DNA of 64,000 bases from Ktedonobacter sp. SOSP1-85 (lineage in GTDB: Bacteria > Chloroflexota > Ktedonobacteria > Ktedonobacterales > Ktedonobacteraceae): positions 2,271,501 through 2,335,500 of the forward strand of contig NZ_BNJI01000001.1 of the NCBI RefSeq assembly GCF_016587415.1, given 5' to 3'. The notes below the pieces were generated by a model, which was not told the DNA's origin, ran no database searches, and saw nothing but the letters and a program-made list of their open reading frames with translations. Positions 33,299-59,740 of the stretch are shown piece after piece. The translations under genes were made by a program, and so were the position numbers. Position 1 is the first letter of the stretch; each line of letters starts with the position of its first letter.

Positions 33299-33957
33299 TA
33301 ATTCTCTAATACTTCGTCTATCAGGCCGTACTCTACGGCCTGGTGCGCCGTCATATAGTTGTCACGATCCGAGTCCTGGGCGATGCGCTCGACGGACTGG
33401 CCAGTATGCTTAGCCAGGAGTTCGTTGAGTTCGCTACGCGTGCGAATAATTTCACGCGCCTCGATCTCGATGTCGGAGGCCTGGCCCGCGATCTCGCCCG
33501 AGATCAATGGCTGGTGAATCAGAATGGTCGAGTTGGGGAGAGAGAAGCGCTTTCCCTTCGCGCCTCCCGCGAGCAGGACTGAACCCATGCTCATGGCCAT
33601 GCCCACGCAGACCGTCGAGACATCCGGCTTGATATACTGCATGGTGTCATAGATGGCCAGGCCCGCCGTGACGCTTCCCCCTGGCGAATTGAGATACAGG
33701 CTGATGTCCTGCGAAGAGTCCTCGTGCTCCAGGTAGAGCAGGAGCATGATCGTCTGGTAAGCCACCATATCATCGATAGGCTTGCCGATCAAGATGATAC
33801 GATCCTTTAACAGCAGGTCTTCAATGCCATAGCTACCCTCGCGCCCCCCGCGATACTCATTGCGAATAGAGGGAATCGAGCGCAAACCCACGCGCTGCAC
33901 CTCGCGCTGCCACCGGGGATCGTGGGGGTACACAATGCTATCCATGATTTCTACCAT
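33298..33957 (-). CDS. clpP: ATP-dependent Clp protease proteolytic subunit (catalytic)
   Basis: 219 residues. Full catalytic triad: Ser in [11 protein letters not shown], His in ILIHQPL, Asp in DSDRDNYM; oxyanion loop [12 protein letters not shown] intact. Forms the barrel-shaped tetradecamer that degrades proteins fed by Clp AAA+ unfoldases. Second gene of an operon with an inactive paralogue 17 bp upstream. GGAAAGG precedes ATG. Confidence 0.96.
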
Positions 33958-33974: not shown

Positions 33975-34643
33975 TTACTGCGCCAATTCCTCGCGTGTAA
34001 TCACTTCGTCGACCAGGCCGTACTCGACCGCCTGCTGCGCCGTCATGTAGCGCCTGCGGTCGGCGTCCTGCATAACCTGGTCGACGCTTTTGCCGGTATG
34101 TTCGGCCAGAATCTCGTACAAACTCTGGCGCTGGCGTAGCAGCTCACGGGCGCGAATCTCGATGTCGCTAGCCTGGCCTTTGACCGAGCTTAAGGGCTGA
34201 TGCAGAACGACCTGCGAGTGCGGCAGGATAAAGCGCTTGCCTTTGGTACCTGCGGCGAGCAGCACAGCGGCCACACCCTGCGCCGCCCCCAGGCAGACCG
34301 TCGTGATCTCTGGCTTCAGATAGCGCATCGTATCATAGATGCCCAGGCCATAGTAGAGGTTGCCGTCCAGGGAGCCATGACAGTTTATATACAGGCTAAT
34401 CTCCTTGGAAGCGTCGTCGCTCTCAAGGTAGAGTAGGACGCCAATCAGGTAGTTAGCGATTTCATCATTGATAAAGGGAGGCACAAAAACAATGCGCTCT
34501 CTCAGCAAGCGCGAGGGAACTTCATTGATACGTGCGGATTCTCTGCGATACGAGGCCATATTCTCAATAGAGGGGAATGGCTGCCTTGCTTGCGCGAGGA
34601 TATCGCCCTCTTCATTGCCGGGAGTTCTCCTGGCTACGTTCAT
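33975..34643 (-). CDS. ClpP-like subunit without catalytic residues (ClpR-type)
   Basis: 222 residues from ATG 34643 (AAAGGAG upstream; the open frame to 34826 has no support). Clearly ClpP-fold, but two of three catalytic residues are gone: the Ser position reads GAAQGVAA (Gly about 123), and the Asp position reads DADRRRYM (Arg about 197). Only His (VVLHQPL, about 148) remains. The oxyanion loop NSPGGS is NCHGSLDG. This parallels cyanobacterial/plastid ClpR and suggests a mixed ClpP/ClpR ring. First gene of the operon, with its own promoter at 34728-34756. Confidence 0.92.
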
Positions 34644-55531: not shown

Positions 55532-55708
55532 TTTTGGAACATTTTGACGGGGCTTTTTTGCTATTGCCTCTCTGGAATGAATATGCTATCTTATACTGTA
55601 CAAATAGCATGAGCTTGGTGCGATGGAACACCCTGAAATACTTTTCCTGTTTTGTAGCCACTCAACGTTTAAAATGTTTTACGGGAAGCTTGTGGAAGAG
55701 AAGTATCT

Positions 55709-58700
55709 ATGGAACAGCCAGCGATCCTAACAATTATTCGATCTGACACACATTACCGCTTTCGTCTTGATCTTCCCGATGGCCAGGCGTCCATGGGACA
55801 GGAGATCAGCGTCGATCTGAGTCTGGAGACACGTGAACGACTTCGCCGTATGCTGCAAGCCGTCGCACAGTCTGCGCAGACGTCAGGTCTGGCTGAGGGG
55901 AAACGCTCCTCCAATACACTCCATGATGTACAACTCGTTCTTGGTCGCTTCCTCTTCGATTCGCTTCTCCCGCCATCTTTACAAGAAGCGCTCCGCAATC
56001 TAACTACTCCGTTGCTTCTCAAAACCAATACCCCGGACATTCCCTGGGAATTACTTTTTGACCAGAGTCAGAAGCCAGGACGCTATCTCTGCCAATCTCT
56101 AAGCATTGGACGTACCTCCCATACGTATCAGGAACGTGATCTTGCTCAACCTGGTGCATATGTAGAACGCCAGGCACGCAAACAGGGGAAACGCGAGAGC
56201 CAGCAAGTTTCTGTGCTCTTTCTGGTCAATCCTACGGGCGAATTTAGTGGCGCGGAAGAGGAGGTTGCGACCCTCTGCACCACCCTTCCCGAGACGGTCT
56301 CGCGCAGTATTCTCTACCGCCAGCAGGCCAATCAATTGGAACTGCGTATGCGCGCCGCGACAGAGAATCCCCTGATCATCCACTACGCAGGCGCCCTACC
56401 GTTGATGAGTGGTCACGAGCCAGTCCTGGCCCTGGCGGGCAATTCACGCCTGGATGCCGATACGATTGAACACCTTTCGCTCTCCCTCTCAAAGCGCCCC
56501 CTGATCTTTCTGAGCTATTACGAGGACGAGCGCCAGACACGCATCGGCACCAATGCTCTCAACCAGCAAGAACGCGATGAGCATACCGAGCGCCTGGCCA
56601 ATCGCTTTTTGTCATCGGGTGCCGGTGCCGTTATTGCTATGCGTTGGCCGGTAAACCCCTTGCGTGCACGTGACTTTATGGCGCTGCTCTATCAGGATAT
56701 TGCTGATGGCGTGACCCTGGGCGAGGCCCTGCGTCGCACACGCCAGGCCATCTCCCAGCAATATAGCAACGATACGACCTGGGCCTCCTTCCTCCTGTAT
56801 GGTGATCCCACGCAACGCCTGGTCACGACTTCGCTCGCGACAAAGGATAGACCGCTGGAACCACAATTCGACGCATTGGATGATAGTCAGATTATGTCGC
56901 CAATCCTTCCGTCTGCTAGCACGCCGGATCGCCGCTTCCTGCGCGCCGTTCTCGAAATTGCCTTGAGCGAGGCTCGGCGTATGCATAAAGACTACCTGGG
57001 TACCCCCCATCTCTTTATCGCCCTGACCAAGCTCGATGGTGGCTGTACGCAGGATGCCTTGCGCACACTCAACTTCTCACCCAAACAGGTGCGCGATGTC
57101 ATCCGCCTGGCTCTGGGTTCAGGCAAGGCTAGCATCGATACCCCCATCCTGCCTACCCGCCGCTGTAAAGAGATCTTGCAAACAGCCGAGCGCAACGCGG
57201 TCACGGCAGGCTCGTCCCTGGTCGATGAGCGCGCCATTGCGCAGGCCGTTCTAGGCGAGGGCGACGGTGTAACGCATGAGCTACTCACCAAACTGGGCAT
57301 CAATCCTACACAACTAGTTGAGCTGATTGTCCAGAGCGATGCCCATGCCCTGCTGGAACTTGTTCCCTCGGCGGGCGCCAATCCAGAGGCCGTGCCAGAG
57401 GAAATTCCCGGCGTACTGGGAGCGGATGGAGGCGCCAAGGGCAGCAACTCCGTGCTTGAGCGCCTGGGACGCGACTTGACGAAGCAGGCATCCAGCGATC
57501 AGTTGACGCCACTCATTGGGCGTGATAAAGAAATTCGCCTGCTCATGCAGACGCTGATGCTCAAGGATCGCAATAATCCCATCCTCATCGGCGATTCCGG
57601 CGTTGGCAAAACAACCATCGTGTATGGGCTGGCCCAACGCATTGTCGAAGGCCATGTTCCCGCCGAGCTACGAGGGAAACGACTCATCGAACTCTCAGCC
57701 AGTTCCCTGGTCGCTGGCACCAAGTATCGCGGCGAGTTTGAAGAGCGGCTGCTAAAGGTACTGGAAGAGGCGGAGACAAGCGGGAATATTATCCTGTTTA
57801 TCGACGAGATGCATATGCTGATCGGCACCGGGCGCGCCGCCGACGGCAGTATCGATGCCGCAGGCATCCTCAAGCCAGCCCTGGCAGGCGGACGCTTGCG
57901 CTGTATTGGCGCCACCACGCCTCAAGAGTATCGCATGATTGAGAAGGATGCCGCGATGGAGCGCCGCCTGCGCCCCATCCTGGTCGAGGAGCCATCGCCA
58001 GAAGATGCGCTCACTATCCTCCAAGGTATGCGCTCCCTCTATGAGGAGCATCATCATACGAGCATTACCGACGAGGCTCTCCAGGCCGCGGTGCACCTCT
58101 CGGTCCAGTATCTGCCCAATCTTCGCCTGCCAGATAAAGCCTGTAGCGTGCTCGACGAGGCCTGCTCGCAGGCCCGCATCTTCTGGATGGAGCAAAAGCA
58201 GCAAGACGAAGTCGATGACCTCGAAGATAATGGCGACGACTTTCAGGCCATGCCTGTTATTACCGCACCCATGATTGCGGAGGTTATCTCTTATCGCACC
58301 GGTATCCCTGTGCAGGCCCCTGGACGCGAGGAGCGCGACCGCTTATTGAGCCTGGATACGCGCCTCAAAGAGCGCGTCATTGGCCAGGATGAGGCGGTGA
58401 ATCGCGTGACACAGGCCATCCAGGTCGCACGTGCTGGCCTGAAGCCACGCCATCGCCCGGCTGGCGTCTTCCTCTTCCTGGGTCCCACCGGCGTCGGTAA
58501 GACAGAGCTGGCACGCGCCCTGGCCGCCGAGGTCTTTGGCTCCGATGATCACCTGATTCGCGTCGATATGTCGGAGTATATGGAGAAACACGCGGTCTCG
58601 CGCATGATTGGGGCTCCTCCAGGATATGTCGGCTACGACCAGGAGGGGCAACTAACCGGCAAGCTACGCCGTCGCCCCCATTGTGTTGTCCTACTTGACG

Positions 58701-59335
58701 AGGTAGAGAAGGCCCATCCCGAGGTCTTTGATCTCTTCCTCCAGGTCTTTGACGCGGGACGCCTGACGGACGCCCAGGGCCATACCGTCGACGCCCAGCA
58801 CGCCATCTGGATCATGACTTCTAACGTCGGAACGGATATGCTGGGACGCTCTATGCCCAGTGGCTTCCGCGCGCACTCACGCGAAAATAACGAGCAGATG
58901 CAGCGCGAACAGCTTATGGAACGGCTACGCCAAACTTTCCGTCCCGAGTTTCTCAACCGCATCGATGACGTGGTCATCTTCCATCCGCTGGATAAGAGCC
59001 AGGCTCGCTCCATCACAGGGCTGCAAATGAACGAGCTGGCCGCACGCCTGCTTGAGCAGGGGCTGATCCTGCACGCGGACGAGAGCGCCATCGATCTCCT
59101 CTGCAAGGAAGGCTTCAGCCAGACCCAGGGAGCACGCCCCCTGCGCCGCGTGATTGAAAAGCTGCTTACTGTTCCGCTCAGCCTGCGCATCCTGCTGGCG
59201 AACCTCCCCCAGAACTGCGAGGTTCACGTTAAAGCCATCGATGATAAACTCGACATAGAGATGCGCGAACCATCCTCACACCTTGCCGAACCCGACGCCA
59301 GCGAAATCGAGGTGGACGCAGAACTGACATCATAG
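55709..59335 (+). CDS. CHAT-like domain fused to a ClpA/ClpC-type AAA+ unfoldase
   Basis: 1208 residues. Residues 1-385: CHAT (caspase/separase-like) fold, with IPWELLFDQ, a His region IIHYAGALPL, a Cys region LIFLSYYEDE and the closing LANRFLSSGAGAVIAMRWPV...ALRRTRQAI...LYGDP. The usual G-H-G and s-A-C-E-T motifs are replaced, so both catalytic residues look lost. Residues 400-550: double Clp_N. D1 Walker A GDSGVGKTT (628), Walker B ILFIDEMHML; only a short linker instead of a ClpB M-domain; D2 Walker A GPTGVGKTE (925), VVLLDEVEKAH. The ClpP-docking loop region reads MPSGFRAH. No other gene in the operon. Confidence 0.9.
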   Translation: MEQPAILTIIRSDTHYRFRLDLPDGQASMGQEISVDLSLETRERLRRMLQAVAQSAQTSGLAEGKRSSNTLHDVQLVLGRFLFDSLLPPSLQEALRNLTTPLLLKTNTPDIPWELLFDQSQKPGRYLCQSLSIGRTSHTYQERDLAQPGAYVERQARKQGKRESQQVSVLFLVNPTGEFSGAEEEVATLCTTLPETVSRSILYRQQANQLELRMRAATENPLIIHYAGALPLMSGHEPVLALAGNSRLDADTIEHLSLSLSKRPLIFLSYYEDERQTRIGTNALNQQERDEHTERLANRFLSSGAGAVIAMRWPVNPLRARDFMALLYQDIADGVTLGEALRRTRQAISQQYSNDTTWASFLLYGDPTQRLVTTSLATKDRPLEPQFDALDDSQIMSPILPSASTPDRRFLRAVLEIALSEARRMHKDYLGTPHLFIALTKLDGGCTQDALRTLNFSPKQVRDVIRLALGSGKASIDTPILPTRRCKEILQTAERNAVTAGSSLVDERAIAQAVLGEGDGVTHELLTKLGINPTQLVELIVQSDAHALLELVPSAGANPEAVPEEIPGVLGADGGAKGSNSVLERLGRDLTKQASSDQLTPLIGRDKEIRLLMQTLMLKDRNNPILIGDSGVGKTTIVYGLAQRIVEGHVPAELRGKRLIELSASSLVAGTKYRGEFEERLLKVLEEAETSGNIILFIDEMHMLIGTGRAADGSIDAAGILKPALAGGRLRCIGATTPQEYRMIEKDAAMERRLRPILVEEPSPEDALTILQGMRSLYEEHHHTSITDEALQAAVHLSVQYLPNLRLPDKACSVLDEACSQARIFWMEQKQQDEVDDLEDNGDDFQAMPVITAPMIAEVISYRTGIPVQAPGREERDRLLSLDTRLKERVIGQDEAVNRVTQAIQVARAGLKPRHRPAGVFLFLGPTGVGKTELARALAAEVFGSDDHLIRVDMSEYMEKHAVSRMIGAPPGYVGYDQEGQLTGKLRRRPHCVVLLDEVEKAHPEVFDLFLQVFDAGRLTDAQGHTVDAQHAIWIMTSNVGTDMLGRSMPSGFRAHSRENNEQMQREQLMERLRQTFRPEFLNRIDDVVIFHPLDKSQARSITGLQMNELAARLLEQGLILHADESAIDLLCKEGFSQTQGARPLRRVIEKLLTVPLSLRILLANLPQNCEVHVKAIDDKLDIEMREPSSHLAEPDASEIEVDAELTS

Positions 59336-59343
59336 TTGAAATG

Positions 59344-59394
59344 GTGAAATGGTGAAGGCTGGTGGCCTGTGGCCGCCAGCCTTCACCATTTCAC
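59344..59394. terminator. Class D hairpin after the CHAT-Clp gene
   Basis: GTGAAATGGTGAAGGCTGG... with GGTGGCC-TGT-GGCCGCC centre, nine bases after the stop. Confidence 0.65.
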
Positions 59395-59435
59395 CTATCG
59401 CCGCACTTTGCTAGTCATATGTACCAGGAGCAAGC

Positions 59436-59475
59436 AAAAAAATGGAGAGGCGACCGAAATTTCAGTCGCCTCTCC
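59436..59475 (-). terminator. Rho-independent terminator on the minus strand
   Basis: Reading minus: GGAGAGGCGAC-TGAAATTTCG-GTCGCCTCTCC-A-TTTTTTT. No minus-strand gene lies upstream of it, which suggests an untranslated transcript. Confidence 0.7.
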
Positions 59476-59740
59476 CTGGGTCACAAAGGGAAACCATGTC
59501 GCTCTGTCTCACGGAGCCAGGCGTTTGGAAGGATAAAATCTGGAATGGTGGCGATGATGAATGAAAAATTTGTCTGGAGCAAGACAACGCACATGTACAG
59601 GCGGCTCAACAGAGTGTAAGAGGAGCCTGGCTCAACTCTCTATCCCTGGAGCAACGCTTTCAACAGTGTGCAGGCCATAGCTCAACAGAGCAGGCTGGCA
59701 CCCCATTCACCACCGCTCACCACTATCTATAGTATACCTA
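59476..59740 (-). ncRNA. Candidate untranslated RNA with an internal tandem repeat
   Basis: Minus-strand stretch ending in the terminator 59436-59475 and beginning near a TATACT (59736-59731). Two related blocks (59574-59614 and 59646-59690) share CTGGAGC...CTCAACAGAG on the plus strand, period about 74. No coding potential recognised. The -35 box is poor, so the start is uncertain. Confidence 0.25.

Follow-up and report, generated by a model that had tools for sequence, protein, structure and literature searches.

The gene studied here lies in a stretch of 64,000 nucleotides from Ktedonobacter sp. SOSP1-85 (contig NZ_BNJI01000001.1, positions 2,271,501 to 2,335,500), which is called the window below. 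Window positions 55709–59335 on the plus strand form a single unbroken open reading frame (ORF) with an ATG start. The encoded protein of 1208 amino acids, here termed CHAT-Clp, comprises from the N- to the C-terminus a cap, a CHAT fold, a Clp_N region and two intact AAA+ modules (D1 and D2). Judged by its sequence, the protein has a CHAT fold yet is no CHAT protease. The architecture, the loss of the catalytic dyad, the constraint on the dead domain, the intact ATPase motifs and an AAA ancestry shared with fusions whose dyad is intact are all supported at this level. By the tests made CHAT-Clp appears to be a distinct class of Clp/Hsp100 protein, apart from ClpA, ClpB and ClpC. For the function of the whole chain we favour, at about an even chance, a pseudoprotease CHAT domain which recruits or gates clients for an ATP-driven unfoldase likely feeding ClpP.

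The CHAT fold and the motor

The Pfam CHAT family (PF12770, in the clan of CD-like cysteine proteases) matched residues 78–366 with an E-value of 2.6e-21 and 76.8 bits, above the curated cut-off of 24. The remaining Pfam matches were Clp_N in two stretches, AAA and AAA_lid_9 in D1, and AAA_2 and ClpB_D2-small in D2. A sequence-only reading of the window had proposed that a CHAT domain, two Clp_N repeats and two complete AAA+ modules are joined in this one protein, and on this Pfam, the fold search and the motif alignments agree. Since independent assemblies of the family show the same architecture, CHAT-Clp is neither a product of chance nor an assembly error. An internal start giving a short form without CHAT was also considered; the linker offers just one methionine candidate, near residue 396, and as this residue is not conserved the candidate was rejected.

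An AlphaFold model of residues 1–380, built from 24 sequences, reached a mean predicted local distance difference test score (pLDDT) of 77.5 and a predicted template modelling score of 0.83. The fold search with this model returned 36 PDB matches at E<=0.001 with CHAT/separase proteins on top, namely Csx29/TPR-CHAT (E 5e-11; TPR, tetratricopeptide repeat), separase, the anti-sigma factor DdvA and SAVED-CHAT. The proposed CHAT fold of the N-terminal region was thereby borne out. A sequence profile search of the PDB with the CHAT part gave no meaningful match, and the relatives came from the fold search alone.

In intact CHAT domains the catalytic residues lie in the motifs H-x-A-x-H and x-A-C, as H585 and C627 do in TPR-CHAT (PMC9729208). 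The corresponding motifs of the window family are HYAG[P/A/V] and LS[YCHFQ][YHTL]. Aligned with catalytically intact CHATs, all orthologues compared, that is every one with a readable CHAT region, carry A, P or V in the His column and Y, H, T or L in the Cys column. Four of them have a cysteine one residue before the aligned catalytic position, and thus off the Cys column. The catalytic His–Cys dyad of an active CHAT protease is therefore absent from the whole set, and the replacement of both motifs noticed in the window protein is shared by all its orthologues.

Although dead, the CHAT domain is constrained. The pairwise ratio of nonsynonymous to synonymous substitution rates (dN/dS) of the CHAT part is 0.04–0.20, and 0.14–0.20 for the pairs with unsaturated dS; these low ratios indicate purifying selection on the domain, weaker than that on the motor. 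Its invariant noncatalytic residues include P112-W113-E114, E183-E185 and L248-D249. Relative to the window protein, the CHAT part averages 61% identity, Clp_N 85%, and D1 and D2 86%.

The motor shows the motifs of a Clp/Hsp100 protein, with Clp_N followed by two AAA+ modules. Wherever an orthologue extends that far, Walker A and B, the pore loops with their tyrosines (KYRG and GYVG), the Arg fingers and the sensor-2 GAR are preserved, being invariant or nearly so in D1 and D2. The named families fit poorly. The ClpA model (TIGR02639) scored 672.7 bits against an equivalog cut-off of 993 and the ClpB model (TIGR03346) 760.1 bits against 1232; an M-domain is lacking and the GF loop is present. 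All NCBIfam models for ClpA, ClpB, ClpV, ClpK and ClpG matched far under their cut-offs, and CHAT-Clp therefore falls outside these named equivalogs. Compared with Bacillus subtilis ClpC, about 40–50 M-domain residues are gone, residues 825–850 forming a short variable linker. The hallmark of ClpC, a MecA/McsB-binding M-domain placed between D1 and D2, is thus not found, and the usual docking site for these adaptors is missing.

Classical ClpP-docking loops carry the tripeptide [ILVM]GF/L. In CHAT-Clp the D2 loop SMPSGFR, with SGF at residues 1051–1053, aligns with the VGF loop of B. subtilis ClpC. G1052 and F1053 are invariant in all full-length orthologues; the preceding residue is mostly S, but also V, L, M or G. 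In the same genome the docking tripeptide is MGF in ClpC, IGF in a ClpE-like protein and MAF in another Clp, and two ClpB proteins are without such a loop. An 853-amino acid Clp unfoldase of this genome (L082), with MAF at the docking tripeptide, sits on a long branch apart from ClpC. The suggested role of the SGF loop in ClpP docking is plausible: the invariant GF, the ClpC-type loop and an MGF in the dyad-intact relatives speak for it, and the serine at the first position in most copies against it.

Adjoining ClpP and ClpR-like genes lie on the minus strand at 33301–33837 and 33993–34535 of the window, the ClpR-like one without the catalytic serine. The pair is about 20 kb from the CHAT-Clp gene and not in its operon. 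It had been proposed that CHAT-Clp feeds this very pair. Coupling to ClpP is plausible, but nothing singles out these two genes among the six ClpP-like matches in the genome. Among other ClpP-related sequences, contig 2 of this genome codes for two proteins of 1366 and 1520 amino acids (L085, 5767–9864 and 10090–14649) with Ser/Thr kinase and WD40-like repeats and an in-frame ClpP-like domain. The kinase stands at the protein start and in the first protein the ClpP-like domain is C-terminal; such kinase–WD40–ClpP fusions look unusual.

Distribution, locus and relatives

CHAT-Clp was found in 28 of the 29 genomes of Ktedonobacteraceae sensu lato (family f1 of our GTDB-based set), and the only genome without it is 76% complete. 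As it is this widespread, CHAT-Clp is a core gene of this family of Ktedonobacter-type soil bacteria, neither an artefact nor a mobile defence gene. Named carriers are Ktedonobacter, Ktedonospora, Thermosporothrix, Ktedonosporobacter, Dictyobacter, Tengunoibacter and Thermogemmatispora. The 11 Mb genome of the window shares an essentially identical protein with one genome of the same genus, and the CHAT part is 100% identical in the Ktedonobacter robiniae and K. racemifer loci. One copy is truncated at the end of its contig, and another carries many frameshifts within a single patch. The latter, an apparent pseudogene of Dictyobacter vulcani (L024; L056, 9040–10565), has its frameshifts confined to about 1.5 kb between good flanks, and is probably a sequence error and not a gene loss.

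Many members of the family keep the same neighbours, upstream genes for a DinB-like and a DUF4012 protein and downstream a histidine kinase gene and an unnamed ORF of 133 amino acids. The CHAT-Clp gene looks monocistronic, and a promoter-like pair TTGACA...TATACT is common to many orthologues. The inverted repeat behind the gene (Table 1) is perfect nowhere else in the genome. Further downstream, at 59444–59475, a strong intrinsic-terminator-like hairpin on the minus strand faces the minus-strand histidine kinase gene. In another genome (G017; L135, 4878–5816) we observed a 313-amino acid protein ending in a free-standing Clp_N that closely resembles the one in CHAT-Clp; it may be a gene fragment or a paralogous adaptor.

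Table 1. Features of the CHAT-Clp gene and its flanks (window coordinates)
Feature	Position	Strand	Basis
Conserved 5' leader/ribosome-binding region GGGAAG..GTGGAAGAGAAG	55681..55708	+	kept in 16/16 aligned upstream regions
CHAT-Clp gene, 1208 aa plus stop	55709..59335	+	single ORF; orthologues family-wide
N-terminal cap, residues 1-77, within the folded CHAT model	55709..55939	+	model secondary structure; mean identity 55%
CHAT domain, residues 78-366	55940..56806	+	Pfam PF12770; fold match
IIHYAGALP, residues 223-231, place of the catalytic-His motif; A229 at the His column	56375..56401	+	alignments
LIFLSYYEDE, residues 265-274, place of the catalytic-Cys motif; Y271 at the Cys column	56501..56530	+	alignments
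Clp_N domain (two repeats), residues 406-560	56924..57388	+	Pfam PF02861, two stretches; mean identity 85%
AAA+ D1, residues 591-845; Walker A GDSGVGKTT 628-636, Walker B DE 699-700, pore KYRG	57479..58243	+	Pfam, alignment
AAA+ D2, residues 881-1180; Walker A GPTGVGKTE, Walker B DE 997-998, pore GYVG	58349..59248	+	Pfam, alignment
Candidate ClpP-docking loop GRSMPSGFRA, residues 1046-1055	58844..58873	+	GF invariant; aligned to ClpC VGF
25-bp perfect inverted repeat just past the stop, terminator-like or mRNA-stabilising	59343..59395	+	fold z-score -9.0 for 59333-59500

Outside the family, 396 genomes of a large Chloroflexota class (the class of G118, probably Anaerolineae) were searched. Two congeneric genomes, G421 and G448, code for proteins of 1267 and 1268 amino acids. 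These contain CHAT, a Clp_N region that is doubled, D1 and D2, align colinearly with the window protein and match it at about 45% identity along the full length. The architecture search across Chloroflexota that the sequence-only reading had called for thus led to the full fusion beyond the family, in two genomes of another class. In these fusions the CHAT motifs are intact (HYAGH and LNACGT) and the docking loop reads MGF. In the tree of the AAA modules they form one clade with the window family (support 100/99), apart from ClpA, ClpB, ClpC, ClpE-like and other Clp proteins, and the CHAT tree groups them too (86/85). The AAA tree was resolved only once the dyad-intact fusions had been added and the N-domain and M-domain columns dropped; an earlier Clp tree had long branches and gave no placement. 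Because the AAA parts form one clade, the CHAT-Clp fusion is probably old, and because the other CHATs compared keep the dyad, its later loss in Ktedonobacteraceae would be the simplest history.

In G421 and G448 two ORFs, one sigma-factor-like and the other Cys-rich and zinc-finger-like, lie ahead of the fusion, and the gene directly after it encodes a Ser/Thr kinase with TPRs. A sigma-factor-like ORF, a zinc-finger-like ORF and a dyad-intact CHAT protein with a C-terminal transmembrane helix also occur together in G495 (L132, 1–4371); this set recalls DdvA and the zinc-finger ORF preceding CHAT-Clp in G421 and G448.

A two-gene form was found in G044 and G036, which belong to other families of the same order as the window. 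Here a protein of 844–888 amino acids joins a CHAT with intact dyad (HVAGH/DGC and YYTGH/GGC) to a Clp_N that has diverged (hhalign 89%, E 2.4e-6) and to a degenerate D1; D2 is missing. A separate Clp_N–AAA ORF starts 30–40 bases downstream of the CHAT gene; both such ORFs are cut by contig ends. Profile comparison of the two-gene form with the window family was colinear over CHAT, Clp_N and D1 (99.9%, E 6e-32). In the approximately unbiased test a shared origin with the fusion was weakly rejected in one row set (p 0.02) and not rejected in the better set (p 0.10).

Ser/Thr kinase–TPR genes lie upstream of the CHAT gene in both genomes, and G036 has in addition an FHA gene and a free Clp_N gene upstream. 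The G036 locus (L092, 784–7352) is an apparent operon of free Clp_N, FHA, Ser/Thr kinase–TPR, intact CHAT–Clp_N–degenerate AAA and a Clp unfoldase cut by the contig end. It looks like a phosphorylation-controlled CHAT/Clp pathway. In G044 (L093, 7–9408) three tandem Ser/Thr kinase–TPR genes stand directly before the two-gene form. CHAT and Clp are hence linked in three settings, with Ser/Thr kinase genes alongside in both of the dyad-intact ones. No further CHAT–Clp_N chain turned up in the 800-odd Chloroflexota genomes sampled by a first-look search, which could miss some.

Possible functions of CHAT-Clp

By analogy with other Clp proteins, CHAT-Clp would form a hexamer whose AAA+ modules make a double ring, its substrate-entry face bearing six CHAT folds and six Clp_N domains. 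This side is assigned to the CHAT domain on account of its position ahead of Clp_N. The ancestral protein would have carried a dyad-intact CHAT, as still seen in another Chloroflexota class. In Ktedonobacteraceae the dyad would have been lost and the fold kept as a pseudoprotease, which may bind or gate specific clients or an adaptor and so take part of the role that MecA/McsB play for ClpC via the M-domain. The motor would then unfold the client and most likely pass it to ClpP via the xGF loop. We infer the hexamer, client binding by CHAT and the coupling to ClpP. The earlier suggestion that the dead CHAT is a binding module fits the dyad loss in all orthologues, the CHAT dN/dS of about 0.04–0.20 and the dyad kept in related fusions.

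Several points weigh against this account. The full-length AlphaFold model was poor (mean pLDDT 51) and was set aside, the placement of CHAT over the pore being by analogy. The dead enzyme fold may be a mere scaffold. Binding of ClpP may be weak or absent, the first docking residue being mostly Ser and not I, L, V or M as in classical loops, and the ClpP step is probably the weakest link of the chain. The main rival starts from this last point. A ring independent of ClpP might unfold or disassemble the complexes bound by the pseudo-CHAT, as ClpB or ClpV do, without degradation. The serine would suit such a remodeller, and ClpI is a precedent for related classes with and without the docking motif (PMC10149685). 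All full-length orthologues nevertheless keep a ClpC-type loop with its invariant G-F, the genome's ClpB proteins lack it, and the dyad-intact relatives carry MGF. We regard ClpP-independent remodelling as possible, though clearly less probable than the pseudoprotease account.

The CHAT part could instead serve mainly assembly or localisation, by oligomerisation or by docking to a filament or membrane complex, and take no part in client choice. SAVED-CHAT, which forms filaments, and DdvA, a dimeric transmembrane CHAT protein, are both among the fold matches, and CHAT evolves faster than the motor. That the dyad was lost in one lineage and kept in another suggests changed substrate handling instead, and we think a pure assembly role unlikely. 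An anti-phage or cell-death system was considered by analogy with Craspase and other CHAT proteases, which act in conflict systems, CRISPR type III-E among them (PMC9729208). Here, however, the dyad is dead and the gene belongs to the core of a whole family, with chromosomal neighbours that are mostly conserved. PADLOC gave just generic AAA matches to part of D1/D2 and no system-specific component, and the phage records searched held no match. The features of a type III-E Craspase were absent as well, with no gRAMP/Cas7-11 neighbour among the ORFs and families scanned around CHAT-Clp and no TPR in the protein. The death or defence role usual for CHAT domains thus finds no support for this conserved, mostly syntenic gene without defence context, and we consider it very improbable.

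For the dyad-intact branch a different reading is conceivable, which we hold only tentatively. A CHAT protease at the entry face might clip or license clients before threading, under the control of the sigma-like, zinc-finger and Ser/Thr kinase genes next to it, and would have turned from protease into client receptor in Ktedonobacteraceae. If this is true, CHAT-Clp would represent a novel type of regulated ATP-dependent protease. Two sister families have the intact-CHAT/Clp gene pair next to Ser/Thr kinases, which suggests that Chloroflexota possess a proteolysis pathway controlled by signalling.

Clp unfoldases pick their clients via N-domains and adaptors, and how such modules and clients fit is a long-standing question. 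CHAT-Clp offers a caspase-like fold on a Clp motor, one fusion that is naturally available in dyad-intact and dyad-less versions. With both versions at hand, two questions become directly testable: can a protease fold be converted into a receptor for substrates, and can a single chain couple caspase-type cleavage with Clp-type threading?

Comparison with known systems

Our search, with subscription journals and preprints outside its scope, found no publication joining CHAT with ClpA, an unfoldase or Ktedonobacter, or describing such a machine. Precedents are ClpI as a Clp class defined by sequence (PMC10149685) and the pseudo-orthocaspases as dead bacterial caspase folds that were retained (PMC6426788). 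New here are the dyad-intact full fusions in another Chloroflexota class, and the intact CHAT–Clp_N–degenerate AAA protein with its Clp partner in two families of the order.

With ClpC and ClpA, the Hsp100 partners of ClpP, CHAT-Clp shares Clp_N, D1 and D2 with all motifs and the ClpC-type D2 loop with GF. The closest solved relative is B. subtilis ClpC, and identity to the ClpC of its own genome is 41%. CHAT-Clp differs from both in its N-terminal CHAT part of about 380 residues, in the lack of an M-domain of ClpC length and in a loop that is mostly SGF and not [ILV]GF; in the AAA tree it falls outside ClpA, ClpB and ClpC alike. ClpI of Actinomycetota resembles it as a distinct Clp class found by sequence, with a variable N-domain and a docking loop that is present or absent. 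Compared by description and not by tree, ClpI has a ClpC-like M-domain, and the portions of the report consulted mention no CHAT (PMC10149685).

TPR-CHAT/Csx29 of Craspase and separase share the CHAT/separase fold with the N-terminal part of CHAT-Clp. Unlike them, CHAT-Clp is without the His–Cys dyad, TPRs and a CRISPR partner and is fused to an unfoldase. The pseudo-orthocaspases are likewise bacterial caspase-fold proteins without the His–Cys dyad which are retained across a lineage; they belong to the p20 family and not to CHAT, and the consulted part of their description contains no AAA+ unfoldase fusion (PMC6426788). DdvA (PDB 8rot), a transmembrane anti-sigma factor, is an example of the CHAT fold in regulation; it is a membrane protein and is likened to CHAT-Clp by fold only.

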